Below, piece after piece: positions 1 to 58,290 of a stretch of DNA of 64,000 bases. The DNA lies in the NCBI GenBank assembly GCA_026874595.1, contig CM049317.1, forward strand, positions 69,771,618 to 69,835,617, read 5' to 3'. The translations under genes were made by a program, and so were the position numbers. A model generated the notes under the pieces. That model searched no databases. It was given only the letters and a program-made list of their open reading frames with translations, and was not told where the DNA came from. The stretch comes from Sipunculus nudus (Eukaryota; Annelida; Sipuncula; Golfingiida; Sipunculidae). Numbering within the stretch: the first letter of the stretch is position 1; every line of letters starts with the position of its first letter.

Positions 1-1461
1 TAAATTTTGTAATTCTCCCCTTTATTAAAACTTTGTTGGCTACAAATTTGTGGTGTTATAATTTCAAGATTTTTATGTTTTCTGAGTTTCACAAGGATTT
101 CATTGTTTTTCAAGACGAATTTGACACAGTGAGAAAAAAAAATCTAATGCTTATATTGGTGAACATCCAACATTTCAGGTATCGTTAACAACCTGAGAGA
201 GCTTTCTTTGAGCATCATTTTCCACGAAGGTTATGTCCAAAAAGCAGACATCTTTTTTTTTATTTCATGCTGTTAATTTAATGTAAATATTGCTAATTTG
301 AAATCATCTTGAACAAAAAAGCCACCAACAGTACTCCAGCCATCAAGGATACAATACCATAGGGACAGGTTAAAAACACATCTCCTGTAGAATACAATTA
401 CCATGTAATGAAAATCTGAATGTGAGATTTAAGATAACAAGAATAAGATGTCAAATTCAGGAATCAGCCTATCATTTATTCTAACTTGGATCATTAATAT
501 AACTTGAATATTGTCCTATGAATCCATAGATGCATATTTGCTTGAAAATCATTAAAGCAGTAATTTTCATGAACATAGAGATACCCAGTCAAAAGACTTC
601 ATTCTAACATCTCTTTGCAGGAAAGACAGGCAAAATCCACTACACATAATACTGTTACTGTCAGTTCATAATATAAAGTACTATTGGTGTGCCAATTAAT
701 TTATTGACTTGATGATTGGTCGTTTTCTTTCCAATTTGATAACATTGATTGCATTTTTGCATAATTGATTAAAAAATATTATGTATGCACATGCAAAACA
801 ATCTAATCCTGTCAGAGATAAACAAACGCAAAGTAACGAACAGCATCAAAAGGGAACCTTGGGCAGCCAACAATCATCTGACGTCACATCACCCTTTGAT
901 ACAGGCGAATTGGTGGTTACATTATGAATACCAATGTACACATCACACTATTTACTTGGGTCAATATTTTAGGTACTAGTATGCAGCAAATTTCATGGTA
1001 TTACAGAAAGTACATTATATAATCAATTAATAATTGATCATCCGTCATTTTTATTTTCCTCAATTATGATTTTTAAAACATATTCCTTCTACTATACAGT
1101 ACATACACTGACATTGGTTCATAACTTATGACAGGGCTATCAACAAGGCAACTTTTTTGAAAGGTCTGGGACTCTTGGGTCAACATTTTGGAGAGTCTGA
1201 CTGGATGTAGATAATTGGTACATGTCAGTAACTTGGACAAGAGCCTGCTTTGACCACTGCTTAGTAAGTGTAGTCAGATACCACACATCTGCTTGGATGC
1301 TAAGAGCCCCAGAACCAAGCGTCCCAAACAGGTATCAGGAGTCTCTGACACATACTCCCACACTGCATGTTCAAGCCCTGCTCATCAGTATGTTTTCTTG
1401 AATATATACATATACATGAACACAGAAACACAGCTCTACACCAAGACACCATGACACTTAC
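1..1461. other. Intron of the PKNOX gene (no exon recognised)
   Basis: No frame here encodes the expected FINARRR recognition-helix end or the PREP C-terminus. The stretch is AT-rich with no strong repeat. A lone CRE-type TGACGTCA palindrome lies at 879-886, with no other promoter sign. Most simply this is the next intron of the homeobox gene. Confidence 0.55.
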
Positions 1462-1538
1462 CAGTTATTGACCTGGAGAAGGGTCAGGTTGGTCTGCTGT
1501 GCTATCTGCCATTTCTCGTCTTCAGAAGGATAAGGATG
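1462..1538 (-). CDS. PKNOX: PKNOX exon: TALE loop and helix 2/start of helix 3 of the homeodomain
   Basis: This 77-bp exon has acceptor CATTTACAG and donor GTAAGT. The translation [20 protein letters not shown] then LQVNN plus two bases of Trp is the diagnostic TALE loop (PYP), helix 2 and the start of the recognition helix. The expected next exon (FINARRR...) is not visible between 1 and 1461, so the gene continues off the left edge. Confidence 0.93.
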
Positions 1539-4500
1539 CTGTAAATGAAAAAGCAGACATAATAAATTGAGACTGGGTTTTCATACACATATAGCGATGT
1601 ACTTAAACTAATTCTTTTATGCAGAAGCCTCATGTCCTTTTTTTCAACTTACTTACTGAGGCATCTTTTTTCCCCAAGGGTTTCATATTTGGGGTTATCT
1701 CCCATTTGCAAATATCAAATAAAAAACCCTTACAAACAAAAAGGCAACCACAGTATTAAAACGCTACAGAAAACTATCTTAAATAATCTGAGTAAAATCT
1801 GAATAATTTATTATGATACTCACATCTAGGGTTGAAATAACTATCTGTGACTGATATGCTTAATAGTAATTACTTCAGCTTTCTGTACCTTGACCAAACA
1901 TCACTGAATAGGAACCATTCAAATAAACTTTAGAGCCTGTTTCTGGGATAATTTTGGTGAAATATAAAACAATTTGGCTTGACAGTTTCCAGTTTTAGAG
2001 TAGATTTTAAACTTTTACCCTGCAAAATGTATGTCAAAGAAGATGGGAGCATAAGAAGCTCAAACCAATCTTTAATATGCGAGAGATTTTTGCAAAAAAA
2101 ATTGATGATGATAGCTCTAGCCATATTTGAGATAGTATGTTGTTACATATAGACAACGGACCACGTTGCCCGGCATCACAGAAGTTCACAGGTTCACTTA
2201 AAACAAAGTTAATCCCTGTTATGTCATCAACTCTACTCACAACTATATGTTGGAAGAGCCATGACCTCATGACCTGTGTCGCTGATTTTGGAAGAACACC
2301 TCGTTTGTTTTGCCGTTTACCTCCGATGTCATCGTCTTCATCTCCAGATCCCATCATTAACGGCGTGGAAGAAAGGGATGGCAATGAACCTGTAACAGAC
2401 ACAGGTACACCAATATTTATTGTTTACATATTATAAATGTTACAATTGTTAAGGGCATGGAAGAAAGGGATGGCAATGAACCTGTAACAGACACAGGCAC
2501 ACCAATATTTATTGTTTACATATTATAAATGTTACAATTGTTAAGGGCATGGAAGAAAGGGGTGGCAATGAACCTGTAACAGACACAGGTACACCAATAT
2601 TTATTGTTTACATATTATAATGTTACAATTGTTAAGGGCATGGAAGAAAGGGATGGCAATGAACCTGTAACAGACACAGGTACACCAATATTTATTGTTT
2701 ACATATTATAAATGTTACAACTGTTAAGGGCATGGAAGAAAGGGGTGGCAATGAACCTGTAACAAACACAGGTACACCAATATTTATTGTTTACATATTA
2801 TAAATGTTACAATTGTTAAGGGCATGGAAGAAAGGGATGGCAATGAACCTGTAACAGACACAGGTACACCAATATTTATTGTTTACATATTATAAATGTC
2901 ACAATGTTAAGGGCATGAAAGAAAGGGATGGCAATGAACCTGTAACAGACACTGGTAAACCAATATTTATTGTTTACATATATAAATGTTACAATTGTTA
3001 AGGGCATGGAAGAAAGGGATGGCAATGAACCTGTAACAGACACAGGTACCCCAATATTTATTGTTTACATATTATAAATGTCACAATTGTCGAGGGCATG
3101 GAAGAAAGGGATGGCAATGAACCTGTAACAGACACAGGCAAACCAATATTTATTGTTTACATATTATAAATGTTACACCGACCATGGGTACCAAGTGACC
3201 TTCAGGCCATGACACACAGAAGGTAAATATAACATATGACACATGTGTGATAATTATTAAGATTTCGAGATGAGAAAGTGAATAAGTCTGGTCTAAACTA
3301 ACTAAAATAGGAAAAGATGGCACTTCAGTGCCTAAATTTAGGAAACCTGGGACCCCAGCCCCGGCGCTAATTTCAGCAATGATAAACATAATATCTGAGT
3401 GTATGTTTAACTATGCGGCCCATAGATAAGGAAACATTCAGAGGAGATAAAGATGAATAGATAAAATCCATTAATTTTTATTGATGCTACACCATATCCA
3501 GCTCACCTACAAGTCTGCTGATGTGGATGTGATATTAGGTCTCATTCTATATAGGAATTGGTAGGACTATAAGGGAAACAGATTCGTTTTTTGTTATTGT
3601 ATACTTGTGTTCCTTTGGTTAGATTTGTAATAAATTCACATTTTCTGCTGTAAGTGCTGGTAGATTGTTCTATCATGTTGTCTGCAATGGTCAGTATGCT
3701 TATGTGTACTCGAAGTTCTGATGTTTTAGTCTGGTTGTTGAAGACAAATTTTTGGATGTACATGAGGAACAATACATCCCCATGTCATGATGCCCAATTA
3801 ACAGGCAATAGCTATAAAATTTATTATGTTGTAACTAAGCATTTACATTCAACAAATTTGCTCAGATACTCCCTAATTTAAAAACGTATCATCTCTTTGG
3901 GCAAGCATTTGGTAATTAATATGCATCTTTTTTTTGGTCAGGCACAGGGATTAAATTTCCATGAAATTGTATGTGGTTATGTGTGTGTAAGCGTGATTTG
4001 CACTGTGAGTCCCACTATCGGTGAATTGGCGTTATATAATTTCTATATATTATATTTATTAATCATATTTTGCATTAAGTAGGTTAATAAAAATAAAACA
4101 GAAAGGTGACAGGTGTAACCTTTGAGGGGGTATAACAGTATATGAACCTGAAGGATGTTTCATACCTTGATTCTGTACAGGTGTGGTGGGGACACCGATC
4201 TGGGATAACGGTGTGCTGCCCTGAACTGCAACATTTCCTGGTGTCTGTGCTGTAGCCACACTGCTGCCACCTGTCTGGATCTTGAAAAACAAACATAGAA
4301 TGCTAAATTATCGAAAAACCTGCATTGACACTCCCATGTAAATGCTCTACTAGAAATAAAGTGAATATGGTTATTTCATGTTGACTGAAAGGATATTCAA
4401 GTGTCATTGTGAAAATTGGTATGTACAACATAGAGCTGTCAGATAGTTGTTGCTTCAGGAAGGCCATGCAGTAATTTACACCTATGCCAGGTTGAAGGTA

Positions 4501-7500
4501 TTATATATTCCACTTGGTTGGATGGTTTGTCAGTTACCCTAAAAGATTTTGTGCAAGAATAGGGTAATATCCAAGGAACAACCCATTTAACTTTGAATGT
4601 ATTCCAGATCAAATTCAAATGATTATATACCTTTGTGACACAGAGTCATTAATTATTATTTAGGGGTGGTTTATCTAGTGGGCCTGTGATCCTTGCTAGT
4701 CAGATATAACAATAAAGAAGCGAGTAGTTTAAAACAAATATATATGGACATAATAAGGCCAAAAAAATTAATATGTTTCTCAGGCACTTTTTTCCTGAAA
4801 ATGATGCTGGTGGGCCGCTTTTTATTTGATTTTTTTATTGTTAAAATAAGAGTAAAATATCATTAATCATTTCTCAGGCATTGGCATGGAAATGACAAGT
4901 TATTATTGAAAAAAGGGGTAAATAATAAATGATTTATGGGTCGAGCTTTCAAAATTTGAAAGGATCTTTAAAATATGTGATATTTTTATTTATTTTACGT
5001 GAGGCCTTTCATGATGAGCCCTACCCATAATTATAAACATCATCTGTATGACTGCAGTAATAAATGAATATATAAGTAAGAACTAGTCTTTTCCATAATT
5101 GTCAATTTCAATGTAGACTGTTGTACCTACCTGTATGGGCTGAGCCAAGAGACCTTGAGGAGTCTGAACCATTTGGTATACACTGTAAAAAAATAAGGTT
5201 TTCCAAAGGGTGATAAAAAGGTTTTTATCGTGTCCAAATACAGAAACCCTTAAATGTTTTTTTTTTGGAAAACCCATTTCCGAAGAACCTATAATAGGTT
5301 TTTTTTTAAACCCTTAAAAGGTTTTATTAAAAATACATCAAACCAAATAACCTTTATAAGGCCATGAAGAAACCCTTTTGAAGGATTTTGTTTATAGGAA
5401 AAACAAGAAATGTATAGGTCATATCACGCAGTGCAAATTGTCTTCAAGGGTAACTGTGCATAATCTGTAAAATAAAACAAGGAAACAATAATTTTGCAGA
5501 AATCAAGATCTATTTATTTGATATTAAACTTCACATGAGTATAACAGAAACAATTGGCGCTCATCCTTATTCGACTTAAAAACTACATTCTCAGAAGTCC
5601 TACAAGATGCTGTTTTGAAATATTAAAAATCTTGCCAGACTTAACTGAAACACAAAAACCCCTATACAAACAACTACAAAATTTTTGCACATAAAATTAA
5701 ATCAAAAGAAAACATAAGCGATATATAGATATCACAACTGAGAATTACGCTTATAAGAAAGCCCATAAAATATATCAGCACTTCATGTCACAGGATATCC
5801 ATTAAAAATTGTCTGAAAATGTAAGAAATTCCTCATAACTGGTATTATTTAGGGAGGTGGGGGATTGAATTAGACACTGCTTGAGTTAAAACTATAATAA
5901 TTTATAAACATATAGTGCCATCAAAACTTTCTTGTATTAAAATGACATCAAAACACATATGTCCAACATGAAATGATATATAATTTGCAGAATAGCTCGT
6001 TTTGTTATCCACTTTCTTAGCTTTTTAAGTTGCAAGCCACTTTGCACATATGATAAGCCTTTTCTGCCAGATAATAAATCAAATCTTTTATTTATGCTTG
6101 ACCTATATTAGAAAATGATAATAGGTGTAAAACTGTACATATAAAAACCAGGTTCTTGTTTCTGAATATTAGAATTTAAGAAATGTTGTTCAAAATATTT
6201 TATACTTTTAATAATGTGAAGACAATGCTAAAATGTAAAAAAACATATAATTCATTATGTTCTTCATGTGAAATAATGTGAAATAAGTTATCTAATAACT
6301 CTATCTTTGGAAACATATTTTTTTAGAATGGCTTTAAACTTTGACCCCTGGGTCAATGTGCTCAGCTGAAGTTGAGGAGGGGGGGGGGTATGGGGAGTAA
6401 CAACTTTCATTGAATATACTTCATACAGGATATGGAATTTAATTCAACTGTGCTTACAGAAAAAAGGTTATTTATAATTATTAAATATTTAAAAGCAGGC
6501 AAAAAATGGAAAGAGAAACAAATTATTTTAATTCCCATTCTATTGAAGCAGGAAAATAATGAACAAATGTTTGCACTAGCTAGATCTTCATCTTTTAAAT
6601 AACATCAATTTTTTTTTAAGTTTATAAATTTTACTATATATATGTAACATATATATCTGAATATCTAAGTTGATTCACAATTCACAAACTGCACCACAGT
6701 ATGTACACAGATGTATTTATTTATTTATTTTTTTTTATATTTTATTTGAAAAATTTAAAAAACAATAAAAATTTGAAAATAACACTTGATTTAGAATTCA
6801 CAATTTTAGGTTGCACCTTGACTTATCCATGATTTTGCTCACATATTATCCAAATTATGCCTACTGATGGGTTTAATTATATTTTAATTCACTTAAATTA
6901 TTTAAAAGGAGATGCTACATTACCACAACATGGCATCAACTGGATTACTCTTTGATTTATTATTTAAAAAAAGTTTTGTACACTGCAGTGTCAACAGCTC
7001 CACAATTAAAGAAATACAGTTATTGCAATACACTTGGAGAGGGGGAGGGAGAAGTGCCATAAGAATAAATGTACACCTGTGACATCAGGGGTGATCGACA
7101 AGTGTTGCATCACTGATAAGGTTACCCAAGCAGGGCTGTAGTGACCAGAAGTGGATCTTGACAATGCAAATCATTACAAAAGAGCCTCTGAGGAAAACTT
7201 CAATAACTAGTCTAATTTTTTAAGACTTTACATTCAGATTTCAGAACATAACAGGCTAAATTCTAATGTGTACCTGCTGTGAAAATTAAATCAAATGTAA
7301 AAAAAATGCAATGGTCAAAGTTGGCCAAAATTTAAGGTACTAATTTTGTTTTTATGCCAATAACATAAAAATAAAAAAAACAGATCTAATTTTAGGTATA
7401 CAATTAAATTTTTATTGAATAAAGCCATATAACTGAAAAAAGGCTTTAGCTTCAACAATTATCATGTGAAGTGATTCAGTTTTCTTTCCCTAACTTTTTT

Positions 7501-9371
7501 ACAAAAGTGCATGATGTTTTGGCCCATAACTTTTACAAATTACGTATTATTGACATAATATCTGGCATGTACATAGGAACTATTGTGGACAAAATCGGGC
7601 ATTCAGTGTTGTTGGCCCGAAACTGTGGAATGACCTACCAGATACTCTAAGAGAAGCCACCAGTCTCTCAGAATTTAAAAGTAAATTAAAAACATATTTG
7701 TTTTTATTTACAATAATATAAGTGATATTATGCAGTCCCAAAAGTGTTTAATAATAGGTTTTTACTGGAAAATTCAGGTTTTACCTTAATTTCTCGAAGG
7801 AACAAACCCTTAAGACCCAGTGTTCGGTTTGGTAGGGGGTCTTGGGAATCTCTAACAGTATGCTGAATTTTTGATTCGTTGGTCTGATGGTTTCAAAACA
7901 TGCCAGTCTAAAAGAACAGGCTGACGGACATAGGACCATTACTGTAGCTCAGATTACTTGTAGTCAGCTGAGCTAAAAATGTAATATAAAATATGGTTAC
8001 TTAATGCAGTTGAAAATCTAAATTGTAAACTTTGTTATTTAACATAAATTACTATTCCACTTTTAAAATAAAATATCTCATTGGTACACTCAAATGAACA
8101 ACAAGCTAAAATTTAACAAGCATTGTAAATTAATATTTGGTTCCCGAAGTCTTTGCAAACAAAATGGTCTTAAATCCCAATATGAAATGTTAAGTTTGAT
8201 GCCCAGGTGTTGACTGTAGTGGGCACTTTTGCATCATCTTTGCCAATGACATACTTTTCTATAAACAAACATGTCTTTTGCTGAGTGTAATTGATGGCAA
8301 ATACCCAAAGGTTGTGAACCATGCTGCCATGATCTGTGAGAACTACATTTCTGCCCCTTCAAAAACAAGTTGCCCATCCACTTTCAGCTGGAACTGGCCC
8401 TTGCCGTCTTCCTTGATGGTGGAGAAAGGTGATGTGACATCCTGTAATGGAAATACCATAGAAATACTCAAGAGAATCATCAAAATAGACAATATGTGAT
8501 TGAAATTGATGCTCTTATAGCTGTAATTGCATGCTGCTTTATAATGTTTATTGTCAGTAACTTTAAATTACAATACAGCTTTAGACTGTACAGAACAGAC
8601 AAGGGACCTTGGGGTCCCAGAGCTCAGCTGAATTTGACTCTGAGAATAGTGGCATAATTTCCAAGTGGTTGTGCTGACTGTGTACTTTTATGGACTGTAT
8701 GAAAGTTGTGGGAGACTCATAATCACATATTTGAAAGAGTTTCAGTATTTATACTAAGTGATTGGAATATGCAGGTAAAAATACCCAGAGAACTTATAAA
8801 ACCCTGTAAAGTATAGAATACTTGACATGGATCAAAATATAATAATAAACATTAATTCATTAGCTGGTAAAAAATGCTGTAAAAAATTAAATGAGCATAA
8901 AATAAATTTGACAAGCATGTTAAAACCATGAAATAAGGTATAAATTGCATTTGCACTGTGTCATAAATGACACTTTTGGCGTCAAATCCAAATCTGGACG
9001 TGTCCTACATCACTTAAACTGTATACATTGCAGCTTTAGCAGGTCCACCACCCTATTTGTCACAACAGGTCACGTACAAGCTGCTTTGTTTACCTTTAAA
9101 ATGCACCATTGCATAAATTACTCATTATATAAATACATCCTTATTCATAGCAGCCTTCAGTGATGAAAACGTCTTCCAAAGATAACTAAGGACTGTCACT
9201 CAGATTTATTTTTAACATCTTAGTCACCCTTGGTGTCTACCTTATTCACTGAAGACATCAAATCTGAGTTTGTTCACAAAACTGGGGACCAATGGGTCTT
9301 GATGCTCAGCTCAATTTGTCTATAAAAATATGATTATGAGCTTATCAAAATATAGGTCCCAGATATATATA

Positions 9372-9433
<62 letters not shown>

Positions 9434-12400
9434 CATGTGTGTGTAACTGTGATCAGTTGAAGCCAACCTGTCTACCCATATGTCAGTTATCATACATAAA
9501 CTAATATATGAATGGATGAGTCCTGTGACCTTGAACTTTTACCCAGAGACCCAAAAACCAAGAGAAAACTTTCCCTTTTGGCAGGTGCACCACATGTTGA
9601 AATGGAAAGTTTGGATTAAAATACATCCACAATCTTTTTAAAAGTATGGGTCATGTAACCTTGACTTCATGCGTTAGAGGTGGGTGAACTATAGGTCAAA
9701 TTTGAAATCTATATCCAAACTGGAGTAATCACCAGGAAACTTTGACAGACATACAGAAAGATGAACAGAATTGGACTGACAGTGTGATTAATATAGGGCA
9801 TCTCCTTTTTCAAGCAGGGCCCTCATAAATACACAAGAACACAGTTGAAACCACAGTTGCGAATCTGATAGTATCAACATAATTTAGCATTCTGAAAATA
9901 AAGGAAGAAATGCATAAAAAAATTACAGGGGGCACCATCAGTCTAAGGGAACTGAAGAAACATTCCATTACCAATAAGCATGCAAATAATCATGGAGACC
10001 AATGCATTAATTAATTAATTAGTTATTCAGAAATTGGAGCTTTTGTATCAAATTTTTCATTATTCTTGGGGGTATGTATGAGTCCCATTGTTCAAAGGAT
10101 ATGGGTAACAGAGACCTAATTTCAGGTTTCAATGGATTTTCCATGGACCTCCCTGGATGTCAAATATAAGATTCTAGGTCCAGCAGTTACGATTTGTGCC
10201 TTGTTAACGGACGGACAGACGGACAAAGAGTGTTTGTTATAGTTCAGATGACTTTTAGTCAGCTGAGCTTAAAAAATTGTAGAAATTAAGAAAAAAAACA
10301 GGTTGTGCCACCAGTTTTAGGGAACTGACAAATCTTGTTGTTGTTAATATTCAAGGCAAGATTCATGGCAATCCATGCATAAATTATCAATATACTGGAG
10401 GTTTTCTATCAAATTTTCTATTATTGTGGGGGGGGGGGGGGTAACTGCTTGAAGGATATAGGTTTATGCAGTGATTTATTTTCAGGTTTCCAATGATATT
10501 TTTTATGCACCTACAAGGATTTTAAATAACAAGTTTCCAGGATTAGCGGTTACAATTTATGCCCTGCTAATGTTAGGCTGGACTGACGATAGACAATGTG
10601 CCATTCTTATACCTGAGATGACTCTCAGTCAGCTGAGCTAAAACCTGACCTGACTTGTCGGTCTTGTGCTTTTTGGCGGTGTTTCCTCATCTTTACCGGT
10701 CAAGTTCTTCCTCTTTCGCCCATTCTTTCCTCGTCTCCCATATTTTTGTGTGGGCAGCATCTGGAGTGTCAGTAAGTGGTATTCTTATTGCTTTCATCAT
10801 GCTCGGAAGGTGTTCTTTCCAGAAATATAAATACTACACAGAAATCACTCATATTAATAATAATACTTGAACTGACTCTTCTTAATCTAGCTTTTGCTAA
10901 CATTTGTTTACCCTGCAGGTAATAATTCTAAATAATAACAATTAACAAGTGAAAACAAAAACCATTCTAGTGTACCATCAGAAGTATATGTGTAATTGCT
11001 TACAGTTATTATTTTCACCAACATCACTTATTTCAGGTATCAGACTGTCATATTTCTTTTTTTTATATGTTTTAAAATTAAATTTAAAATAATGCTAAAG
11101 TATTGTACAGGCTACAACCCGCTGGTCTTAACAGAAAGTACTTACATATTTTCCTATATGAGGATACTGATGCAACAGGGCAGTCAATATTCTTTTGTAT
11201 CCTTCCCTGGATGGGCGCCTGAAAAGATTAATATTTGATCAATAAAACATGCAACTCCAACAAAGAGGCAGTGTCTCCTGGTTCCTCCCTCCTTTTCGAG
11301 GTGAGCACCTTTATTCTTGACTGTACCACTTCTGTTTCCAGTAAAATTCTGAATCTGCCTATATATGATACACCACATATATTACACTGGTAAGTAATTA
11401 AAATCAAGGGACCTATGGGTCACTGTCCTCTGCTGAAGTTGAACTGAAGTAAAAATCTATAATAATATCAAATGGAGGAAAAGGTAATATAGTCAGTGAT
11501 GGGTTTGTATTTATGTTATGTGGTAAGAGGTGTTAATATCTATTATAAATAATTACTGATTTTAACGCAATATTTTGGTACACATAAGATCAGTTACCAG
11601 TTCAGCAGATGGAAAGACAGATGAGCGACAGAGAGAAATGATAATAGCCTAAATTGGTGTACCAATGCATTGTCTACCATTGTAAGACAGGTGTTTGGAT
11701 TCCGATCTCCATATGTCGGTTAGCATATAGGTTTAGAAAAGAAGCTGATAAATGAGTATTTTAATGGACATAAATTCTGAATGCAGATCGACAACCAGTG
11801 ATTACTATAGACTGGTATAATTGTTATAGCCATGTGAATGTAAACTTAATCAAGTAAGCCAAAATAGATTCTGTTATTATAGGCATCAGCAGAAGCCAGG
11901 TTTAGATCTGGATGACAGTGTAAAATGATATAAAAGTCAAAGGTACGGTAAATACCGGCCTGCGCATGAGGCAGTAATTTAGGACAGGAAAACTGTACCA
12001 AAAGTGAGTCAGTAAGTAGCTGGGTCACACAGAATTGATCAGGAGACAAATATATACCCTGAATATATTAATATCAGGAATATAATGATATTACATGAGT
12101 TTTAGGTAAAACAAGGAAAAAGTTTGTGCGTAGGCGAAAGCCGAAGCCATATATGGTTATCTAAACATTCAGGTGCGTCATAATGATACATATCCAATAT
12201 CCAATAGAAAAAGTGTAAGATGATGTAAAGGTTTGTGACGTAGTAATACTGATACAAAATCCTGTGTTGGGCTGGGAACTGGCAGACAGACCCACGCCAT
12301 CATCAACATGTAAACCAAGACAACTGGAAATAAAACAGCACAATATCCAACTTGGACTGTCTCAGTTATTCACCAGACGCGCCGTGTGACTGTGTTATGG

Positions 12401-15400
12401 CCAGGGAAGAACTCCCCTAATTCCCCGTTGTAACATTTATAAGTAAGAAATTGTTGCAAATAATGCTCTGTGACCAAACCATGCATTTCCTAATGTTAAA
12501 ATTGAAGCATATGAGCAGTTTGTGAACATAAGATGTGTATTATTACCATGATTGTTGGTTGGCTTTTTGATACACTGTTGAATGTTCAGTAGTTTTCACT
12601 TTTGTTCAATTAGATTTTTTTTTAAATATATATTATTAATATATTGGAGTAACAAAATCTCTGTATTATTATATTGTATATACCAGGGTTGGAACCAGGT
12701 ACTTTTACTTCTACCTAGGTACATTCTAAGGTACCTGTACCTGTACCTAAGCACTTTACAAAACTGCTGTACCGGTCTGTACCTGAACCTGACCATTTTT
12801 CAAGTACCTGTTCTTGTACCTAGGTACTGTCACATGTACCTGGACCCAACCCTTGTGTATATACATTGGATTTTCACTTAATTCTACAAAAGTTCATTCA
12901 CAATTACTTAATATTTAAAATAGGACAGAAAGACTGGTAGACACACAAAGCTGATAACAAAGAAGTTTTATTTAGTCTCAGTGACCCAGTTTGGTGGGAG
13001 ATGATCTGATCTTGGGGACATCTAAAAGTATGCTGAATTTTTTATTTGTAGGTCAAACGGTTTCAAAATGTGCAAGTCTAACGGAATGTAAGACGGAAAG
13101 ACAGACAACGGATAATGGGCCACGACTATAGCTCAGATGACTATTATAGTCAGGTGTTGGACAGTACTCTCTGTCAAATGGAGGGGGATGGTAGGGGAGG
13201 GGGTTTGAGATGTTGGACAGTACTCTCTGTTAAATGTGACTGGCCTCACACACTATCCTCACACACATAGGTGTGTGTACCTGTTTTCACTCAACATCAT
13301 ATACATGGAGTGTGTGTGTGTGTGTTGGGGGGGGGGGTTGAAGTGTTGGACAGTACTCTCTGTCAAATGGAGGGGGATGGTGGGGGAGGGGGGTTTGAGA
13401 TGTTGCACAGTACTCTCTTTCAAATGTGACTGGCCTCACACACATAGGTGTGTGTACCTGTCTTCACTCAACATCAAATACATGGAGTGTGGGGGGGGGG
13501 GGGGGAGTGAGGTGTTGGACAGTACTCTCTGACAAATGGAGGGGAATGGTGGGGGAGGAGGGTTTGAGATGTTGGACAGTACTCTCTGTCAAATGTGACT
13601 GGCCTCACACACATAGGTGTGTGTACCTATACATGCTGTCTTCACTCGACATCAAATACATGGAGTGTGGGGGGGGGGGGGGGAGTGAGGTGTTGGACAG
13701 TACTCTCTGACAAATGGAGGGGAATGGTGGGGAGGGGGTTTGAGATGTTGGACAGTACTCTCTGTTAAATGTGACTGGCCTCACACACATAGGTGTGTGT
13801 ACCTGTTTTCACTCAACATCATATACATGGAGTGTGTGTGTGTGTGTTGGGGGGGGGGGGGTTGAAGTGTTGGACAGTACTCTCTGACAAATGGAGGGGA
13901 ATGGTGGGGGAGGGGGGTTTGAGATGTTGGACAGTACTCTCTGTCAAATGTACGTGACTGGCCTCATACACAGAGGTGTGTGTACCTGTCTTCACTCGAC
14001 ATTAAATACATGGATCGAGTGGGGGGTTTGGGGTGTTGGACAGTTCTCTCTGTCAAATGTGACTGGCCTCACACACATAGGTGTGTGTACCTGTCTTCAG
14101 TCGACATCAAATATATGGAGTGTGGGGGGTGGGGGTTGGGGTGGGGGTGATGGACATTACTCTCTATCAAATGTGACTGGCCTCATACTCATAGGTGTGT
14201 GTACCTGTCTTCACTCAACATCAAATACATGGAGTGTGGGGGGGGGGGGGGGAGTGAGGTGTTGGACAGTACTCTCTGACAAATGGAGGGGAATGGTGGG
14301 GGAGGGATGTTTGAGACGTTGGACAGTACTCTGTCAAATCTGACTGGCCTCATACACAGAAGTGTGTGTACCTGTCTTCACTCGACATTAAATACATGGA
14401 TCAAGTGGGGGGTTTGGGGTGTTGGACAGTTCTCTCTGTCAAATGTGACTGGCCTCACACACATAGGTGTGTGTACCTGTCTTAACTCGACAGCAAATAT
14501 CTGGGGGGGGGGGGGTTGAAGTGTTGGACATGCAGTGCTTTCTGCTTATGTGACTTTCTTCACACAGGAATGTGTATATCCTGTCTTTTCCCACTAATAT
14601 TAGTACTTTGGGGATGGCGAGATAGTACTGTCTGTCAGATATGACTTTATTACTTCAAACATGTATGCATGTGCTAGTACTTGGAATGAGAGTGGTGGGT
14701 TGGACATTCAATATTACTCTCTCACAGATAGATAAATTTATACATAAAGATAGTTACTATTCCAAACTCACAACAAGGCCCATATAGATGTGTATCAAAT
14801 GGAATTAATTTTTTTATTAAAATGATACCTTAAAAATGCTTATTTTAGTTACTGTACATATTCTGTGATAGATAATTGATTATATAATTGAAGAACTAAC
14901 AAACTGTTGAATTAGCAGGATCGAGGCACATAACAGGTGTAATTTCAAATTCAAGAAGTTGTCAAAGATAAAAGGAATGGATGTTCTGTTTTATTTTACT
15001 GTTTATGCTTAAGTTGATCATTGTTCCAAGTATGTGAAATATTAATAAAGGTTGCTGTCTGGCCTTTATAAATTCTGTAAACTGTTGTAAGCTTTTAATC
15101 ATATCATTTATGTACAGAGGCTATATAATAATGACATTGTTTATGTGTATGGAAGAGTTAGTGAGAAATCACCATTGCATACTAATTTTTTTTTTATTAA
15201 CGCATTATGAAACACACTGCTGTCACAAGGCTCTATAATGGTTACTGCTTCTAAAAATCAGCTGGGTATCATTTAAAAACAAAGTGAGCTGACAATGTAA
15301 ATCCTAATTTAAAAAAAAATTGAGTTTACCAGCACATGCAATGGAATATATGTATAAAAGTAATTTTTGTATTTTTTGTCTATTTTAAAGGTTAAATCAT

Positions 15401-18400
15401 TTTTTAATTTGTTGTCCTATAGCACCACTTAATATAATCCAATAGAACATAAAATAATTTATCATTGACATGAACATTCATTAATTTTACTCTTCCTATG
15501 TAAGGACTCAGCATTTTATTTATTATTTTTGTTAACTGTAGTCTGTAACTATATAAATACAAAATATATGTGGCCTGGATGACATCCCAGGCATCTGATT
15601 TGGACTGAACAATATTGTCAATAATAATAATACAATCAAAAATATAATCTGTACATAGCGAAAATGCCCAGTTAATCGAGTTATGTAATAAGTAAATATA
15701 CATGCATGTGTCTGCTGGAAATACCTTGTACCCAGTATAAGTATAACTTGGACACAACACGTTTGGGGATGCAAATGTCGTTTGTTTATATGCCGGGGAT
15801 GTGGGGGGGGGCTGGTAGCGCTGTTAAAGACCGGCTGAGTAATGCATCGTGTTGCTCCTTGCTAGCAATACTATGCAGATATTTACATCTGGCAGACCAT
15901 ATAGGAATCGTCCTTTGAAGGTGAAACGCGAAAAACATACCAAGCCAATCGTTAATGTCTTACCGGGCCGCCATCTTGAAAATCCCACTGCACTATAGAA
16001 CATTCCAGCACGCCTGTCCACCTGTTTTTTCGTGATTATTTTTTTGATAATCAAAGAATGTCCAAACTTTTTAATCTTAGGGCAGAAAGAGGAAATAGCG
16101 TAATTAACTACTATGGAAATAATAGCGTACCTTATGTCATTTTCCTGTAAACAATTTAAAAGCATTTTATGAGTAATAAGTCTATTCTGTAGCGACATCT
16201 TGCAACTAATCTGTGAAATATATAGGCATATCAGGAATTAGTGATGACGTCATAATAGCCGTGACGTACTAAAGAGGCGCCCATATTCATGGGACCAATA
16301 ATCAAGAGTTGCCTACCCCTTTTTCAGCGAGACTTGTATTCTCCGCGTGCACGCGCTTCACTGTTACGTCACATTACTTTATATCCATATCCAAGGTGGA
16401 TAAACAATGGCCACTTATTAGGGACGCCATGAACCACTGATATATATGAGATATGTCAACCAGGCCGTAAAGTGAATAATATTTATATTTTGAATAGGTA
16501 AGGTACCAAAAATTACGCTTTGGCCTCTTTATGCCATTGGTGCAAATATTATTTTGCAAGTTGGTCTTATGTAGAGATAATCGCAAAAAAACAGGTGGAC
16601 AGGGGTGCTGGAACGGACTATGCCGCCATGGGCCTAACATTCCACGGCGTAAAACTAAATGTAGATGTACCAAGTTGTTTCACCTGTCTACAAGCAATTG
16701 CAAAGTTTATCATGAATCAAAACTGACTTACCTGTAAGCTTGAATTTCTGGGAGTGACGGATTCTCTGCATAAAAATAGTGATTTGCTGTTGGTCTTTCT
16801 GGCACCTCATGTCACTGCTGGAGCCGCCAAGAAGATACACGTCACACGTGACATGTTCAGTCAAACGCCCGCAGTGCACCCTCGCGTTAATATAAGGAAT
16901 TAATGACACTCACGCGGGAAAAGGGGTTTTTACGGGAAATACATAAAACAAAACCCATTTACAAGAGGCTACGGGTGAGGAAAGAAAGAACAACCCATTT
17001 ATCTAGAAAGAACCATTTTATAAAACTCTTCTTCTAACAGTGTACAGTTCCACCGGAAACAATTTGATCTTGACTTAATGTTGCCATGGAAACAGAAGGC
17101 TGTGCAACATTTTGCTGTATGACAACATTGCTGCCGCTAATGGTTGCTAGGAGACCAGGTTGTTGTTGGACACCTACTGGACTGGTCTGTGCACTGGGTG
17201 GACTAGATATTGAAAAATCATCGTCTAAACCAAGTTCATTGCGCAACAGGTTTTCACTATGTAGCTTACCCTTAAGACAGGCAATGTAGCGATTACAGAA
17301 GTCTTTGCATAGTTCATTTACTTTCTCCAGTTCCAATAAATGGATCTGTAATACTTGTATTGCTTTCAACATCTGAAAAGAAAATATGATTAAGTAGTAA
17401 CAATTTTAAATGAAAAAGAATGATGGTTTAAAACAAAATGCCCTGCAGGTCTGGCTAACAGGCTTATCAGAACCTTTTAATTTCATTTTAAAGTGCACAT
17501 TAAAGCACCTTTTCAGGGTTTTCAAGGACCATGACCATCAGTTTTTATGAAACAACTTCTGATTTAGTCATAATTTTGTATGAATGGGAACAATTGCTGT
17601 TTCCACTTTGTGTTAACCAAGATTTAAGGACATGCACAATTTCAGCTGAATACAATGAGTCAGTCACTAGGACTTACAGATGGCATATGCATGAATGGAC
17701 ACCCCGTGGAAATAATTGAAGGTGGCACCACCAGTCTAGAGTATGAGATGAAGATATCAAAGATCTACGGACATGCAAAATTTCAGCTCAATACATTTAA
17801 ACAATCCTGAGATATCGACTTTTATCAAAAAGACACCCAGATCATACCGCACAACAAGAACTGTAGGTGGTGCCACCAGTCTTTGTTACACACACTAAGT
17901 GAGTGAATAACTATGCCAGGTTTCAGAAAAATCAGTCCAAGGGTCTCACAGGTGCTCTCTGGAAACAAATGTGACGGCAGTGGTGGAACTCTAATTAAAA
18001 CATAGTATCCACAAAACTGTTTAAGTGGGTACAATAACTAATTATAAAAGAAAACGACCAATCATCAGTATAATAAATTAATTGGCAATTAATGTTTATC
18101 CCCTTTTTCACAATTCTTCACAGGTCCTGGTTCTACCTTTTGCAAAAAAAAAATCACAGAAATTGCTTTGGTAGTTCTTGCTAATCCTGCTTTCAAATAA
18201 ACTTCCCACCCAACAAACAAACAGACAAACAAGATGACCAGAGGTCACGCGCTTGCCGGAAATGGAAATAATACAGACAGACAGACAGAGAGTGCATGTA
18301 GAAACAGTCATATGAATGAGCAACGTTGTGGGGGCAGCAGAAACGAATAATACGTTTATGTATGTAGAAACAGTCATATGAATGAGCAATGTTGTGGGGG

Positions 18401-19796
18401 CAGCAGAAACAGAAATACGTTTATGTATGCATGCTGACCTTGAATAGCTGCATACCTTTCTAGTGTAAAAGGGATCAAGTTCAAACATTTCCATGAAATC
18501 CTGTTAATCTTGTTTGACAAGAAGCAGTGAGAAGTTTTCAGATTTGTCATGTCAAGCTGGCCAAATGTTATGAAATGCCAAAAACTAGACCTGTCTAGCT
18601 GTAAAAGTCGCCAAGTTATTAGCATTTCTGTGAAATCTCGTTTTTTTATCGTTTGAGGAGATATGGTGCAAGATTTGGCCAGTCTTGCAGGTTTGTCATG
18701 TCAAGCCGTCCAAATGTTATGAAATGCCAAAAACTAGACCTGTCTGGCTGTAAAAGTCGATGACTTGTATGCATTTCTGTGAAATCTGGTTTTTCCACAT
18801 TTGACCAGATATAGTGCGAGATTTGGCCAGTCTCGCATTTTTACTATGTCAAATTGGCCAAATGTTACCAAATGCCGAAAACTAGACCTGAGTAGCTGTA
18901 AAAGTCGCCTAGTTATAAGCGTTTCCATGATATCTCGTTTTTTCTCCCTAGACGAGATATGGCGCAAGATTTTGCCTGATTTCTTTTCTGGCGTGTCAAG
19001 TTGGTCATATGTTATGAATGCCGAAAACTAGGCCTGTGTAGCTGTAAAAGTCACTGAGTTATAAGCATTTCCGTGAAATCTCGTTTTTTTCACGTTTGAC
19101 CAGATCTAGTGCGAGATTTGGTGAGACTTTCAGTTTTATCATGTTTATAAGCTACATAATGACCAAAACCAGACTTCTGTAGCTTAAAAATTGACAAAGA
19201 TAGAAAACGTAGCATGACTATTTTCAATTTATCAAGTTTTAACCCAAAAATTCGTAACCATGGTAACGGCAGATTTGAGTCAGGTACCCATCATATAAAA
19301 GGCCATGGAATGACAAATAAAACAAGTAATGGTTTAAGTGGCTACAACCATTTGTTACAAAGTTATGGAGCAAAAACTGTATTGCATACTTTCCATGATC
19401 TTGACCTTCACCATGATGCGATGTTGACCAAAAACAACAGGGTTCCAGGACTTTGGGTTGTCAATCATACCTGTAAGTCTCAAGTCGATTGCTGCAAAAT
19501 TGTGGCCAGGAGAGCGCAGAGAAACAAACAAAAAGACAGACAAATGGACATACGGAACTGACCAACATGCTTGCCGAAATCGAAGATTGAAAGAGTGAAA
19601 ACATATCCTCCTTTAGGAGAATCACACTCACCAGGGCATCAAGGTCAGTGTCCTCACTAAAGAACGGTCGCTGGTCTTGCTCCTGATGAGGAATAAAAGA
19701 CTGGATGTTGTTGTCGAAACTATCGCATGGCGGACAGTCCGGGGTCTGAGTGGCTTGTTCACATTTCTCAAACAGCAGTGGGAACAGGGGGTATAC
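1462..19796 (-). CDS. PKNOX: PKNOX/PREP-class TALE homeobox gene, partial (gene span, six exon pieces)
   Basis: The gene is read on the minus strand from 19796 down to 1462. PKNOX/PREP proteins are nuclear transcription factors that pair with PBX through an N-terminal MEIS/PREP domain and bind DNA through a three-amino-acid-loop (TALE) homeodomain. Seen here in order are [15 protein letters not shown] and then [20 protein letters not shown] (both PBX-interaction domain), a Gln/Thr/Ser/Val-rich linker with SGGTVYQ split across an insertion, a DEDDD acidic stretch, [20 protein letters not shown] (homeodomain start) and [20 protein letters not shown] to LLQVNNW. Splice sites are canonical and phases agree at four of the five junctions. 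The exception is 17043/5180, where an 11.86 kb element sits inside coding sequence. The 5' exons before the PLFPLL exon and the exon that would carry FINARRR were not found in the window. Family assignment is very secure; whether this is a PKNOX1- or PKNOX2-type gene is not meaningful for an invertebrate single-copy gene. Confidence 0.93.
2241..2389 (-). CDS. PKNOX: PKNOX exon: acidic linker and N-terminal half of the TALE homeodomain
   Basis: This 149-bp exon has acceptor TGTCTGTTACAG and a strong GTGAGT donor. The translation runs from [20 protein letters not shown] into the homeodomain arm and helix 1 ([20 protein letters not shown], then HIV). The last residue before the donor is Val, where vertebrate PREP has Gly or Met next to HPYP. 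The first 19 bp of coding sequence and the acceptor are also the repeating part of the 92-bp minisatellite just upstream, so the exon boundary itself is the ninth unit of that array. Confidence 0.93.
2391..3176 (-). repeat. 92-bp minisatellite carrying duplicated PKNOX 3' splice sites
   Basis: Nine units are anchored by the GAAAGG motif at 2371, 2463, 2555, 2646, 2738, 2830, 2921, 3012 and 3104, a period of 91-92 bp. The first unit overlaps the start of the homeobox exon (2241-2389); the other eight lie in the upstream intron. On the coding strand every unit holds a T/A-rich stretch, TGTCTGTTACAG and then GTTCATTGCCATCC, meaning the true acceptor plus the first coding bases. Units differ by only a few substitutions, so the amplification is recent. 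Confidence 0.95.
3177..4165. other. Remainder of PKNOX intron
   Basis: AT-rich intronic sequence between the minisatellite and the 4166 exon. No coding similarity, no clear repeat boundary and no RNA gene is visible. Confidence 0.5.
4166..4280 (-). CDS. PKNOX: PKNOX exon: Gln/Thr/Val-rich linker
   Basis: This 115-bp exon has acceptor TTTTTCAAG and donor GTATGA. The translation [20 protein letters not shown] continues to TTPVQNQ plus one base. The entering phase 0 matches the end of the 5131 exon (CCC ATA CAG), and the leaving phase 1 matches the homeobox exon (G + GT). The composition resembles the low-complexity glutamine/valine linker between the PBX-interaction domain and the homeodomain in PREP proteins. 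It has no catalytic or DNA-binding motif of its own. Confidence 0.85.
4281..5130. other. PKNOX intron between linker exons
   Basis: 850 bp bounded by the GTAGGT donor (5130) and the CAAG acceptor (4281). It is AT-rich, with no other feature seen. Confidence 0.6.
5131..5180 (-). CDS. PKNOX: PKNOX exon, 3' part: linker segment on the far side of the insertion
   Basis: The reading is [17 protein letters not shown], followed by a GTAGGT donor at 5130. Vertebrate PREP1 has GGTVYQPV followed by a TPQG run, so this piece continues the SGGT at the end of the 17043-17372 piece. A polypyrimidine tract plus CAG (TTATTTTTTTACAG) immediately precedes it, but that tract belongs to the terminus of the inserted element. 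Using it as an acceptor gives one base (T) before the GTA codon, for which the upstream half offers no phase-2 GT donor. Confidence 0.85.
5181..5420 (+). repeat. Left terminal/subterminal region of the CACTGT element
   Basis: CACTGTAAAAAAATAAGG is followed by repeated AAACCCTT / AAGGTTT motifs in both orientations (for example near 5249, 5310 and 5375), giving a foldback-prone subterminal zone. On the minus strand the very end is a good-looking 3' splice acceptor. Confidence 0.6.
6310..7580 (+). repeat. Interspersed repeat copy related to 34910-36850
   Basis: Shared stretches with the 35-36.6 kb region include a G-run after a GAGG-rich lead (6375-6390 versus 34937), a TTATAATTATTAAATATTTA block (near 6473 versus 35180), ATTTTAATTCCCATTCTA, and a GAAAATTAAATCAAATGTA block (near 7283 versus 35290). 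It is non-coding, AT-rich and diverged. Confidence 0.6.
7587..7721 (+). pseudogene. 3' end of a CR1/L2-like LINE reverse-transcriptase ORF
   Basis: The frame reads [20 protein letters not shown], then [19 protein letters not shown], then a stop at 7719. This is the very common C-terminal signature of CR1/L2-group LINE proteins (R-FS---P-LWN-LP ... F---LKT-L). No upstream reverse transcriptase is visible, so it is a 5'-truncated remnant inside the larger element. Confidence 0.8.
7780..7980 (+). repeat. Interspersed repeat tail ending TCAGCTGAGCTAAAA-type
   Basis: It contains the segment with TTTCTCGAAGGAACAAACC, then 'ACCCAGTGTTCGG...GGTCTTGGGAATCTCTAA', and ends TAGTCAGCTGAGCTAAAAA at 7961-7979. 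The same end recurs at 10275, 10643, 27868, 31446 and 37692. Confidence 0.65.
8170..8442 (-). pseudogene. Decayed coding remnant inside the CACTGT element (family not recognised)
   Basis: After a consensus acceptor (TTACAG at 8443-8448) the minus strand reads [20 protein letters not shown], then [12 protein letters not shown] and a stop. After one frameshift it continues [20 protein letters not shown], then [20 protein letters not shown] and a stop at 8170. The two halves look like one protein C-terminus with one frameshift. The composition is protein-like rather than repeat-like. I do not recognise the domain; a transposon accessory ORF or a captured host fragment are both possible. Confidence 0.55.
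8602..8640 (+). repeat. Head of a head-to-tail element
   Basis: ACAAGGGACC...GGTCCCAGAGC followed by TCAGCTGA at about 8633, matching the heads at 21111, 28845, 34091 and 46139. Confidence 0.6.
9284..10275 (+). mobile_element. Head-to-tail element, about 1.0 kb
   Basis: The head GGGACCAATGGGTCTTGATG is followed by CTCAGCT. The body contains a satellite-like monomer (9927-10240: GGGGCACCATCAGTCT ... GGTAACAGAGACCTAATTTC ... ACGGACGGACAGACGGAC). The tail is AGTCAGCTGAGCTTAAAAAA at 10258-10275. This is a nonautonomous element with no coding sequence. Confidence 0.6.
9366..9433. repeat. (TA)n microsatellite
   Basis: About 68 bp of nearly pure TA dinucleotides with two TTA interruptions. Simple sequence. 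Confidence 0.98.
10276..10643 (+). repeat. Diverged second monomer of the same element family
   Basis: It repeats the body found at 9927-10275 (GGTTGTGCCACCAGTTTTAG ... poly-G of about 13 at 10429 ... ACTCTCAGTCAGCTGAGCTAAAA) with heavy divergence. It looks like a tandem or adjacent copy. Confidence 0.6.
10655..10790. other. Less AT-rich patch with weak coding character
   Basis: On the minus strand a short frame reads [20 protein letters not shown] before a stop. On the plus strand there is a donor-like CA|GTAAGT at 10769-10776. Either could be a relic exon of the enclosing element; neither is convincing alone. Confidence 0.25.
11405..13157 (+). mobile_element. Possible degenerate head-to-tail element
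   Basis: Head-like AAGGGACCTATGGGTCACTG is followed by CTCTGCTGAAG at 11405-11440. A tail-like GCTCAGATGACTATTATAGT then CAG lies at 13131-13153 and is cut into by the G-rich minisatellite. The body 13000-13090 matches the 7790-7920 repeat. The boundaries are weak. Confidence 0.35.
12685..12852. repeat. GGTACCT/AGGTACC palindromic low-complexity repeat
   Basis: Reiterated TACCT, GTACC and CCTAGGTAC words in both orientations, able to fold on themselves. No coding meaning. Confidence 0.85.
13157..14545. repeat. G-run-rich compound minisatellite
   Basis: Modules alternate: TGTTGGACAGTACTCTCTG, then AATGTGACTGGCCTCACACA, then CATAGGTGTGTGTACCTG, then CACTC(A/G)ACATCAAATACATG, then a run of roughly 8-15 G. 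Longer units also carry AAATGGAGGGG-ATGGTGGGGGAGGG. Six or more G-runs point the same way. The open frames across it are products of the repeat. Confidence 0.95.
14546..15780. other. Non-repetitive AT-rich interior of the CACTGT element
   Basis: No protein similarity, RNA gene or tandem repeat is seen on either strand. Confidence 0.5.
15962..15978 (-). promoter_or_regulatory. YY1-like AAGATGGCGGC motif with start codon and splice donor
   Basis: The minus strand reads CAAGATGGCGGCCCGGTAAG: a YY1-type AAGATGGCGGC, an ATG at 15974-15972 in good context, and a GTAAG donor four codons later. In animals this arrangement marks the 5' end of many genes and of some transposons. It could be the first exon of a transposon gene read leftward. 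No confirmed downstream exon is seen. Confidence 0.4.
15985..16680. repeat. Inverted pair of about 80-bp motifs
   Basis: AAAACAGGTGGACAGG-GTGCTGGAA occurs on the plus strand at about 16588-16613 and inverted at about 16002-16027. In both copies a GCCGCC/GGCGGC motif follows. The intervening DNA is CpG-richer than its surroundings and contains TGACGTCA at 16245-16252. Confidence 0.6.
16245..16252. promoter_or_regulatory. CRE-type palindrome TGACGTCA
   Basis: A perfect CREB/ATF palindrome, followed 9 bp later by the half site GTGACGTA, within the CpG-richer block near the right end of the CACTGT element. It could belong to the element's promoter. Confidence 0.35.
16920..17042 (-). repeat. Right terminal/subterminal region of the CACTGT element
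   Basis: Read on the minus strand it begins CACTGTTAGAAGAAGAG and then has AATGGGTT- and AACCCATTT-type motifs resembling the left end. The match is imperfect beyond the first 6 bases, with A/G-rich positions conserved only in character. Confidence 0.55.
17043..17372 (-). CDS. PKNOX: PKNOX exon, 5' part: second half of PBX-interaction domain and linker; cut by an insertion
   Basis: The acceptor CTTTTCAG precedes ATGTTGAAAGC, in phase with the upstream exon ([12 protein letters not shown]). The protein shows [20 protein letters not shown], then [20 protein letters not shown], then a Ser/Pro/Gln/Val-rich linker ending VSGGT. Coding similarity stops exactly at the CAGTG end of the large element at 17042. 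The in-frame continuation into the element reads V-H-C and then stops. The missing continuation (VYQ...) is found at 5180 on the far side of the element, so this is the 5' half of one interrupted exon rather than a normal exon end. The bases 17043-17044 (TA) are one copy of the proposed target duplication. Confidence 0.9.
17720..18030 (+). repeat. GGTGGCACCACCAGTCT-type interspersed repeat
   Basis: Related to the 53936-54240 sequence (GGCACCACCAGTCT...GAGATG, then GATCTAAG...ATGC..., then ...TCTCTGGAAAC...GGTGGAACT...ACATAGTATCCACAAAAC). Non-coding. Confidence 0.6.
18297..18429. repeat. Two tandem copies of a 65-bp unit
   Basis: GAAACAGTCATATGAATGAG starts at 18301 and again at 18366; the copies are nearly identical. 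Confidence 0.95.
18481..19200. repeat. Tandem repeat of about 148 bp, about five units
   Basis: AAAACTAGACCTG recurs at 18581, 18730, about 18878 and about 19022, together with GTGAAATCTCGTTTTTT and GCGAGATTTGGCCAG motifs. Diverged, non-coding. Confidence 0.9.
19632..19796 (-). CDS. PKNOX: PKNOX exon: first half of the PBX-interaction (MEIS/PREP N-terminal) domain
   Basis: This exon is 165 bp (55 codons, phase 0 at both ends). It has a clear acceptor (TTTTTGTGCAG before GTATAC) and a GTGAGT donor after GCCCTG. The translation starts [17 protein letters not shown] and ends [11 protein letters not shown], matching the known PREP pattern in which an acidic LD-L run leads into the next exon. Compared with vertebrate PREP as I remember it (PLFPLLALLFEKC), three residues are missing between PLFPLL and FEKC. 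I do not know whether that is lineage-specific. The 5' neighbour exon is not recognisable within the next several kilobases. Confidence 0.92.
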
Positions 19797-21424: not shown

Positions 21425-22462
21425 TGTAGGTTGTGCCACCTACCACAAATCCAGAAAGCTGTCCAAGTTGTATACACCTGCAAAATTTTAGGCAGAAAAG
21501 TCAAACCACTACATGTATATGAGCGATTTTTGCCCATGGCAGACAAACAGACAAACACTGTGCAAAAATCTTTGCAGGTAACCCCTCCAGTTTTGTGTAT
21601 GATAAAGACCTATGTGAGATCTAAACACATGCACAATTTTGGCCCAATCGGTCAAATGGTTCCTGAGATATGAGCTTGGATGTGTCCAGCGTTAACTAGA
21701 ATGTAGGTGGCGCCACCTGTCATAAAATCAAGAAAGCTGTCCACGATGTATAAACCTGCAAAATTTTAGGCAGTTATGTCGAACCACTACAGAGAAATGA
21801 GTAATTTTAGGCCACGGCAGACTAACAGACAGACACTGTGCAAACATTGTTACAGGTGGCACCACCATATTTTGTGTATGTTACAGAGCTATCAAAGGGC
21901 TACATTTGTATAAATTTTATTTCCTGATCGGTCAAACGGTTCCCGAGATATAAGCTTGGATGTCATCAGCATGAACGTGAATGTAGGTGGCGCCACCTGT
22001 CATAAAATCAAGAAAGCTATCCTGGATGTATTCACATGACGAATTTCAGGTGAATTAGTCAATTCACTGCAGAGATATGAGTGATTTTAACCCAAGGCAG
22101 ATGAACAGATGGACACTGTGCAAACATGGTTACAGGTGGCGCCACCATTTTTTGTGTATGTTATAAAGCAATCCAAGGGCTACATTTGTATCAATTTTAT
22201 TTCCTGATTGGTCAAACGGTTCCCGAGATATGAGGGTTTATGAGTGGAAACAGACCCACAAATGGACACTGAATAGAGAGGAAAGGTCAGAGGTCAATGC
22301 AAATTGGTTAGGCACCAGTTCACATGTGACCCGATAATAGGTGTAAGTTTGGGAAAAATCGGTCCATTAGTCTCCGAGGAGCTCTCTGGAAACTAACGCC
22401 CCTGCGGCGGAGGAACTTGGTCAAAAACATAGTATCCGCAAAACTTCGTTTTGGTGGATACA
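21425..22462 (+). repeat. GTAGGTGGCGCCACCTGTCAT-type repeat, about 260-bp units
   Basis: Units start ATGTAGGT(G/T)G-GCCACCT at about 21422, 21702 and 21982, and half-units carry GGTGGCGCCACC at 21706-21717, 21986-21997 and 22135-22146. Recurring text includes GCAGACAAACAGAC and GGTTCCCGAGATATGAG. Related blocks are at 32855-33640, 37850-38500 and 53500-54230. Confidence 0.85.
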
Positions 22463-22464
22463 AA

Positions 22465-27780: not shown

Positions 27781-27974
27781 TTGTGCCTGGTTAACGGACG
27801 GACAGACGGACGACAGACAAAGAGTGATCGCTATAGCTCAGATGACTTTCAGTCAGCTGAGCTAAAAAGGGGGCTTGTCCTGGATGATGGTAAAGTTTGT
27901 GGCCCAGGGAATAAGCTCACCAAAAAGTGACTCCTTGGATAATTAGTCTTGCTCTGATAGTAGAATGCTCTTAA

Positions 27975-58100: not shown

Positions 58101-58290
58101 TAAAGCTTTGTTGACAGTCATAATCTCAGGCCAATACATCGCATTACCACTTGTGTGGTACAAAAAACAGTGTTGTGTATAAGATAAAGCTATTAAAGCT
58201 TTGTTGACATTCATAATCTTAGGCCAATACATCTCACCATTACTCAGTAGTTCACAAAATGTTGTTTACGAGGTTAAGCTATCAAAGCAT
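55176..58290. repeat. 92-bp hairpin satellite, about 34 copies
   Basis: The unit is ACAAGATAAAGCTATTAAAG, CTTTGTGGACACTCATAATC, TCAGGCCAATACATCACACT, ACCACTGAGTGGTACACAAA, ACACTGTTGTGT. GTACACAA...TTGTGTAC forms an 8-bp stem with a short loop in most copies, and CCACTGAGTGG adds a second small palindrome. Units near both ends are more diverged. The apparent proteins in both strands are products of the repeat. Confidence 0.97.

Follow-up and report, generated by a model that had tools for sequence, protein, structure and literature searches.

DNA transposons of the CMC(T) group (EnSpm/CACTA, Mirage, Chapaev; ESTA) are described as having mostly CA..TG termini and target duplications of 2 to 5 bp, with EnSpm itself described with 3-bp duplications (PMC12730594), and for SmTRC1, a relative of CACTA, 2-bp repeats are given for 7 of 14 copies (PMC1636069). 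In the account of introners in PMC9860276, a DNA transposon that has inverted ends lies within coding sequence, with a target duplication; introners recruit splice sites, mRNA length is unchanged in most families, and family median lengths run from 30 to 654 nt. Here we analyze a 64,000-nucleotide stretch of the Sipunculus nudus genome (G000:C12:69771618-69835617, hereafter the window), in which an 11,862-bp element lies inside a coding exon of a PKNOX (PREP) gene, against a 1.43-Gb assembly of 153 contigs.

The PKNOX gene lies on the minus strand, and exons A to E were located in the window. Exon B is in two parts. Its 5′ part (17043..17372; MLKAIQVL...SGGT) is preceded by a TTTTCAG acceptor and matches Pfam PF16493 (E 1e-16), and its 3′ part (5131..5180) terminates at a CAG|GTAGGT donor. 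Exon C (4166..4280), exon D with the start of the homeodomain (2241..2389) and exon E with further homeodomain sequence, ...LLQVNN (1461..1537), follow. Between the parts of exon B the coding strand reads ...TCC GGT GGA ACT GTA, CACTGTTAG...TTTTACAGTG, TA TAC CAA ATG.... The insert (5181..17042) has CACTGT as its left terminal inverted repeat (5181..5186, plus strand) and the same motif on the minus strand as its right one (17037..17042, ACAGTG on the plus strand), and it is flanked by TA at 5179..5180 and 17043..17044. Taking out 5181-17042 and one TA leaves a single open frame of 126 codons. The original prediction of a transposon-like element with CACTGT ends and TA flanks, whose removal exactly restores the PKNOX frame, is therefore confirmed. 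Among 24 aligned homologues (drawn from 120 listed of 2,269 found), the restored 14-residue junction segment is found letter-for-letter in 8, including two scallops, Tegillarca, Lingula and Strigamia, and with internal differences in 12, including both vertebrate rows; four rows, all oyster, are without its first part, GQIVSGGT. A set of oyster and tick rows (P0041, P0043, P0050, P0071, P0080, P0096) comprises oyster PKNOX proteins in which GQIVSGGT is absent directly before VYQ and three tick isoforms in which a block ending at PIQ is missing as a unit.

The left 280 bp of the element gave 40 scored matches among 47 candidates in the genome, of which 38 begin at base 1 and the other two at bases 2 and 43, and the right 300 bp gave 40 among 51, three of them just 66-67% alike. 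Pairing left and right ends by position and strand yielded 33 pairs including the window copy, with seven rows per side unpaired, so that the search for more CACTGT-ended copies proposed with the prediction added 32. An equal 2-bp target duplication flanks every one of the 33 (28 TA, 3 CA, 1 AT, 1 TT); CACTGT is present at 31 left ends and ACAGTG at 32 right ends. A genome family with paired ends and matching 2-bp duplications excludes a chance resemblance of the ends. The 11,862-bp insert is a genuine cut-and-paste DNA transposon. Copies range from 9.5 to 23.6 kb, with 24 of 33 between 10 and 13 kb, and the ends of 26 lie within 1.5% of the consensus, so that these large elements form a family with recent activity; the two copies scanned contain no recognised coding domain. 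The ends of the window copy are 6.2% from a consensus built on the other 32. The end divergences of two copies are probably inflated (C15a has a left match over 1-152 only, and the right end of C16b is in two pieces), and for C15a divergence was taken from the long-alignment comparison instead. Enrichment of AACCCWTT was dropped as proof that the element's two ends are related because the motif was picked after looking and unbiased k-mer sharing between the ends is modest, being reached by 0.5 to 29% of randomly chosen window pairs depending on word and window size.

Going by its termini, the element fits CMC/EnSpm-like transposons, with no transposase in the two copies scanned. A transposase of the DDE type, with C(2)C and H(3-4)H motifs, was looked for in six frames of the window copy and of a young copy (L028) without any transposase match at E up to 1, and the sole listed domain match, PF10562 (E 0.21), fell below its cut-off. 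Animal EnSpm elements often begin CACTGTAAAAA. A literature search for this string did not find it among the matches listed. Two short frames of the element (7554-7718 and 11187-11419), without a Pfam hit, resemble by eye what we take to be retrotransposon debris, and a distant relative of the family (L099) has just two frames of at least 130 aa, by eye like retrotransposon pieces. Gains and losses apart, the window copy is colinear with four other full copies and one reference copy. Three stretches (7584-7719, 11516-12434 and 15996-16621) are unmatched in the copies compared and are probably later insertions, and a G-rich tandem array of 57/114/169-bp periods (13148-14530) takes a variable form among them. 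Satellite arrays elsewhere in the window occupy 22462-27795 (336-bp units), 55244-58288 (92-bp) and 59673-62064 (130/262-bp), the 336-bp array being about 68-77% similar to a stretch within the element.

A protein search of the genome returned three matches from five candidates, namely the window copy, a distant one on contig C3 and one on contig C17 that covers all 126 residues at 94% in a single open frame. Exon B of the C17 gene is one open 378-nt frame; the DNA across the site (GGAACAGTATACCAAATG) has one TA and no intron, and the empty site itself, TCCGGTGGAACAGTATACCAAATG, has no insert. With this empty site and the 33 matching duplications, the view that a mobile element occupies a PKNOX/PREP coding exon holds. 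No empty-site version of the window gene (C12) was seen among the three protein matches in the assembly. Six syntenic blocks of C12 and C17, exons included, align at 84 to 92%, and their introns give a K80 of 0.117 over 4,863 sites, from which we read the two genes as duplicates. The acceptor and start of exon D, single in the C17 stretch, are repeated in C12 within a 92-bp tandem array of about nine units (2357..3177).

The C12 gene carries a frame-breaking lesion besides the insert. The 5′ edge of exon A (19632..19796, minus strand) has two extra and nine missing bases relative to C17, a net loss of 7 nt that puts the exon out of frame provided that the acceptor is unchanged; the deviations L1V and F2Y stem from this lesion and not from substitutions. 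Over 342 codons (exon A minus its 5′ edge and exons B to F), C12 and C17 differ by a dS of 0.139 and a dN of 0.0203 (dN/dS 0.146). There are 15 amino-acid differences, of which 11 were judged C12-derived, two C17-derived and two unclear when polarised by whichever state was more frequent among 29 outgroup proteins from the 120 homologues listed, several sites varying widely. Among the differences are changes of R to Q and of R to W, at positions where 29 and 27 of the 29 outgroups, respectively, have R. In a tree of 26 rows, the C12 branch is 0.061 and the C17 branch 0, and together with the count of derived changes this points to relaxed constraint on C12. The evolution of C12 was not neutral over its whole history. 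The introns contain 66 indels in 4,863 sites, and for 1,027 coding bases on the C12 branch about 7 indels are predicted if the gene was neutral since duplication (P of none 0.0009), 3.9 if neutrality covered 56% of that time and 1.5 if it covered 22%. The 342 codons, the insert apart, have neither indel nor stop. This absence and the dN/dS of 0.146 suggest that selection held for much of C12 history, and we read the gene as decaying later. C12 looks like the losing duplicate, which may retain residual function. The original prediction had offered two outcomes, a haplotype-specific disruption or removal of the element from RNA; given an uninterrupted second copy, a frameshift in exon A and an asymmetric protein change, that pair is not supported.

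The age of the insertion was approached by comparing the window copy with a young consensus built from five young copies. The window copy differs from it by 6.55% over 8,050 sites, most of the differences being private, and has internal gains and losses too. At 7,628 sites aligned with C15a as the third copy, private changes number 401 in the window copy, 81 in the young consensus and 113 in C15a, with 13 three-state sites; using C6a, C9b or C3e as the third copy gives 381, 394 and 382 window-only changes. Under one clock for all lineages, simple arithmetic gives the split of the window lineage a depth of about 3.3% per lineage, and of up to 5.3% if the source sequence stood still; half the divergence of the C12/C17 duplicates, at 5.8%, exceeds the 3.3%. 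These values are an upper bound on the date of insertion, since further moves of the lineage may have followed the split. With a still source, the 5.3% private change would imply an insertion not long after the duplication, and the long survival of the frame would then be harder to explain. The clean C17 site and the smaller element divergence lead us to infer that the insertion came after the duplication; the less likely course is an earlier insertion that C17 later lost perfectly.

Exact removal can be drawn as five equivalent cuts, with boundaries TG-AG, GT-GT, TA-TG, AC-GT and CA-TA, and none of the five is a GT-AG, GC-AG or AT-AC intron. The part of the original prediction that had the species remove the element from its RNA would thus need a non-canonical intron for exact excision. 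Splice-site scores are -1.0 for the junction donor vs 5.9 to 10.5 for six donors of the PKNOX gene and 10.7 for a strong acceptor, TTATTTTTTTACAG, at the end of the element; a GT-AG intron joining the junction donor to this acceptor causes a +1 frameshift. We scanned donors in a range that starts 200 nt upstream of the element and reaches 9 nt into it, against acceptors in its last 400 nt and in the 50-nt exon part, and the frame-keeping GT-AG pairs lose or add residues, with a best combined score of 6.0. By reading the sequence in the sense of the gene, a strong donor-like ACAG|GTAAGT is also predicted inside the element (GT at 16730..16731, minus strand). Read through from exon B, the element gives an in-frame stop, SGGTVHC*, upstream of the homeodomain. 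Splicing-out of the element in C12 is not supported by these site predictions.

The best account of the locus is, with high probability, an insertion after duplication into a redundant, decaying PKNOX copy. A cut-and-paste transposon would have entered exon B in one member of the PKNOX pair, putting a stop before the homeodomain, with no canonical intron to take the insert out exactly; C17 would have kept the gene's role, so that the decay of its duplicate C12 was tolerated. What this comparison of sequences suggests is that C12 lost its function and that C17 compensates. That the element is instead a newly gained intron, spliced from the RNA of a functional gene, we consider very unlikely. 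The strong terminal acceptor, the open, conserved flanking coding sequence and a dN/dS well below 1 speak for it, as does an arithmetic estimate, assuming a dN/dS of 0.05 before, by which an insertion at the 3.3% bound with instant gene death would have left about 27 amino-acid changes in C12, against the 11 to 13 seen. However, the only exact boundary that uses the terminal acceptor requires a TG donor, the GT-AG options shift the frame or change residues as given above, and exon A has an independent frameshift. Even less probable is a compromise in which the element was present while the C12 protein was still selected and was removed by TG-AG splicing with its own acceptor, C12 decaying later. 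Since a second copy of the gene exists and C12 is seemingly decaying, there is no support for the idea that a transposon has made an intron in a conserved regulator.

The predicted read-through product would suit a C12 gene that yields a truncated PREP without the homeodomain, and homeodomain-less isoforms are described for the relative Hth (PMC7392893), but exon A, upstream of the stop, is frameshifted, and the part of C12 upstream of the insert has not collected fewer derived changes (7 in 157 codons) than the part downstream (4 in 185), so that we give this reading little credence. A recent, haplotype-specific insertion is improbable in our judgment. The assembly represents one haplotype only and the element's differences could predate this insertion, yet the window copy stands 6.2% (ends) to 6.55% (8,050 sites) from consensus, mostly by private changes, and has had internal gains and losses. 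Prompted by the protein isoforms, we also considered whether SGGT|VYQ could be the site of an ordinary phase-0 intron of ancestral origin, with an extra base at the acceptor and ends that resemble those of a transposon by chance. The presence of a GT like a donor and an AG like an acceptor, out of phase by one base, the oyster proteins lacking GQIVSGGT right before VYQ, and old interior repeats that resemble others in the window could be cited for it. It is refuted by the continuous C17 exon, and the ends are those of a repeat family that makes target duplications, with an interior common to other copies; the chance that it is right is negligible.

What had the appearance of a transposon-made intron becomes, under insertion into a decaying duplicate, a case of duplicate-gene decay that can be dated and whose empty site survives elsewhere in this genome, and C12 and C17 together allow an internal test of the time for which selection lasts near a large exonic insertion. 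Compared with described systems, the family resembles CMC(T) transposons in its CA..TG (CACTG-type) inverted termini and 2-bp duplications, and it differs from canonical EnSpm in that the window copy, flanked by ATA and TAC, does not have a 3-bp duplication, the duplications of the other 32 copies having been scored at 2 bp only. Like introners, the element has inverted ends, a target duplication and a coding location; unlike them, it is 11.9 kb long, has no canonical splice-site pair that restores the mRNA, and sits in a host copy that is seemingly decaying. In comparison with a transposon-disrupted duplicate gene, the frame of C12 is mostly open besides the exon A edge and the insert, whereas the uninterrupted C17, the disrupted C12 and the asymmetric substitution between them are shared with that system.
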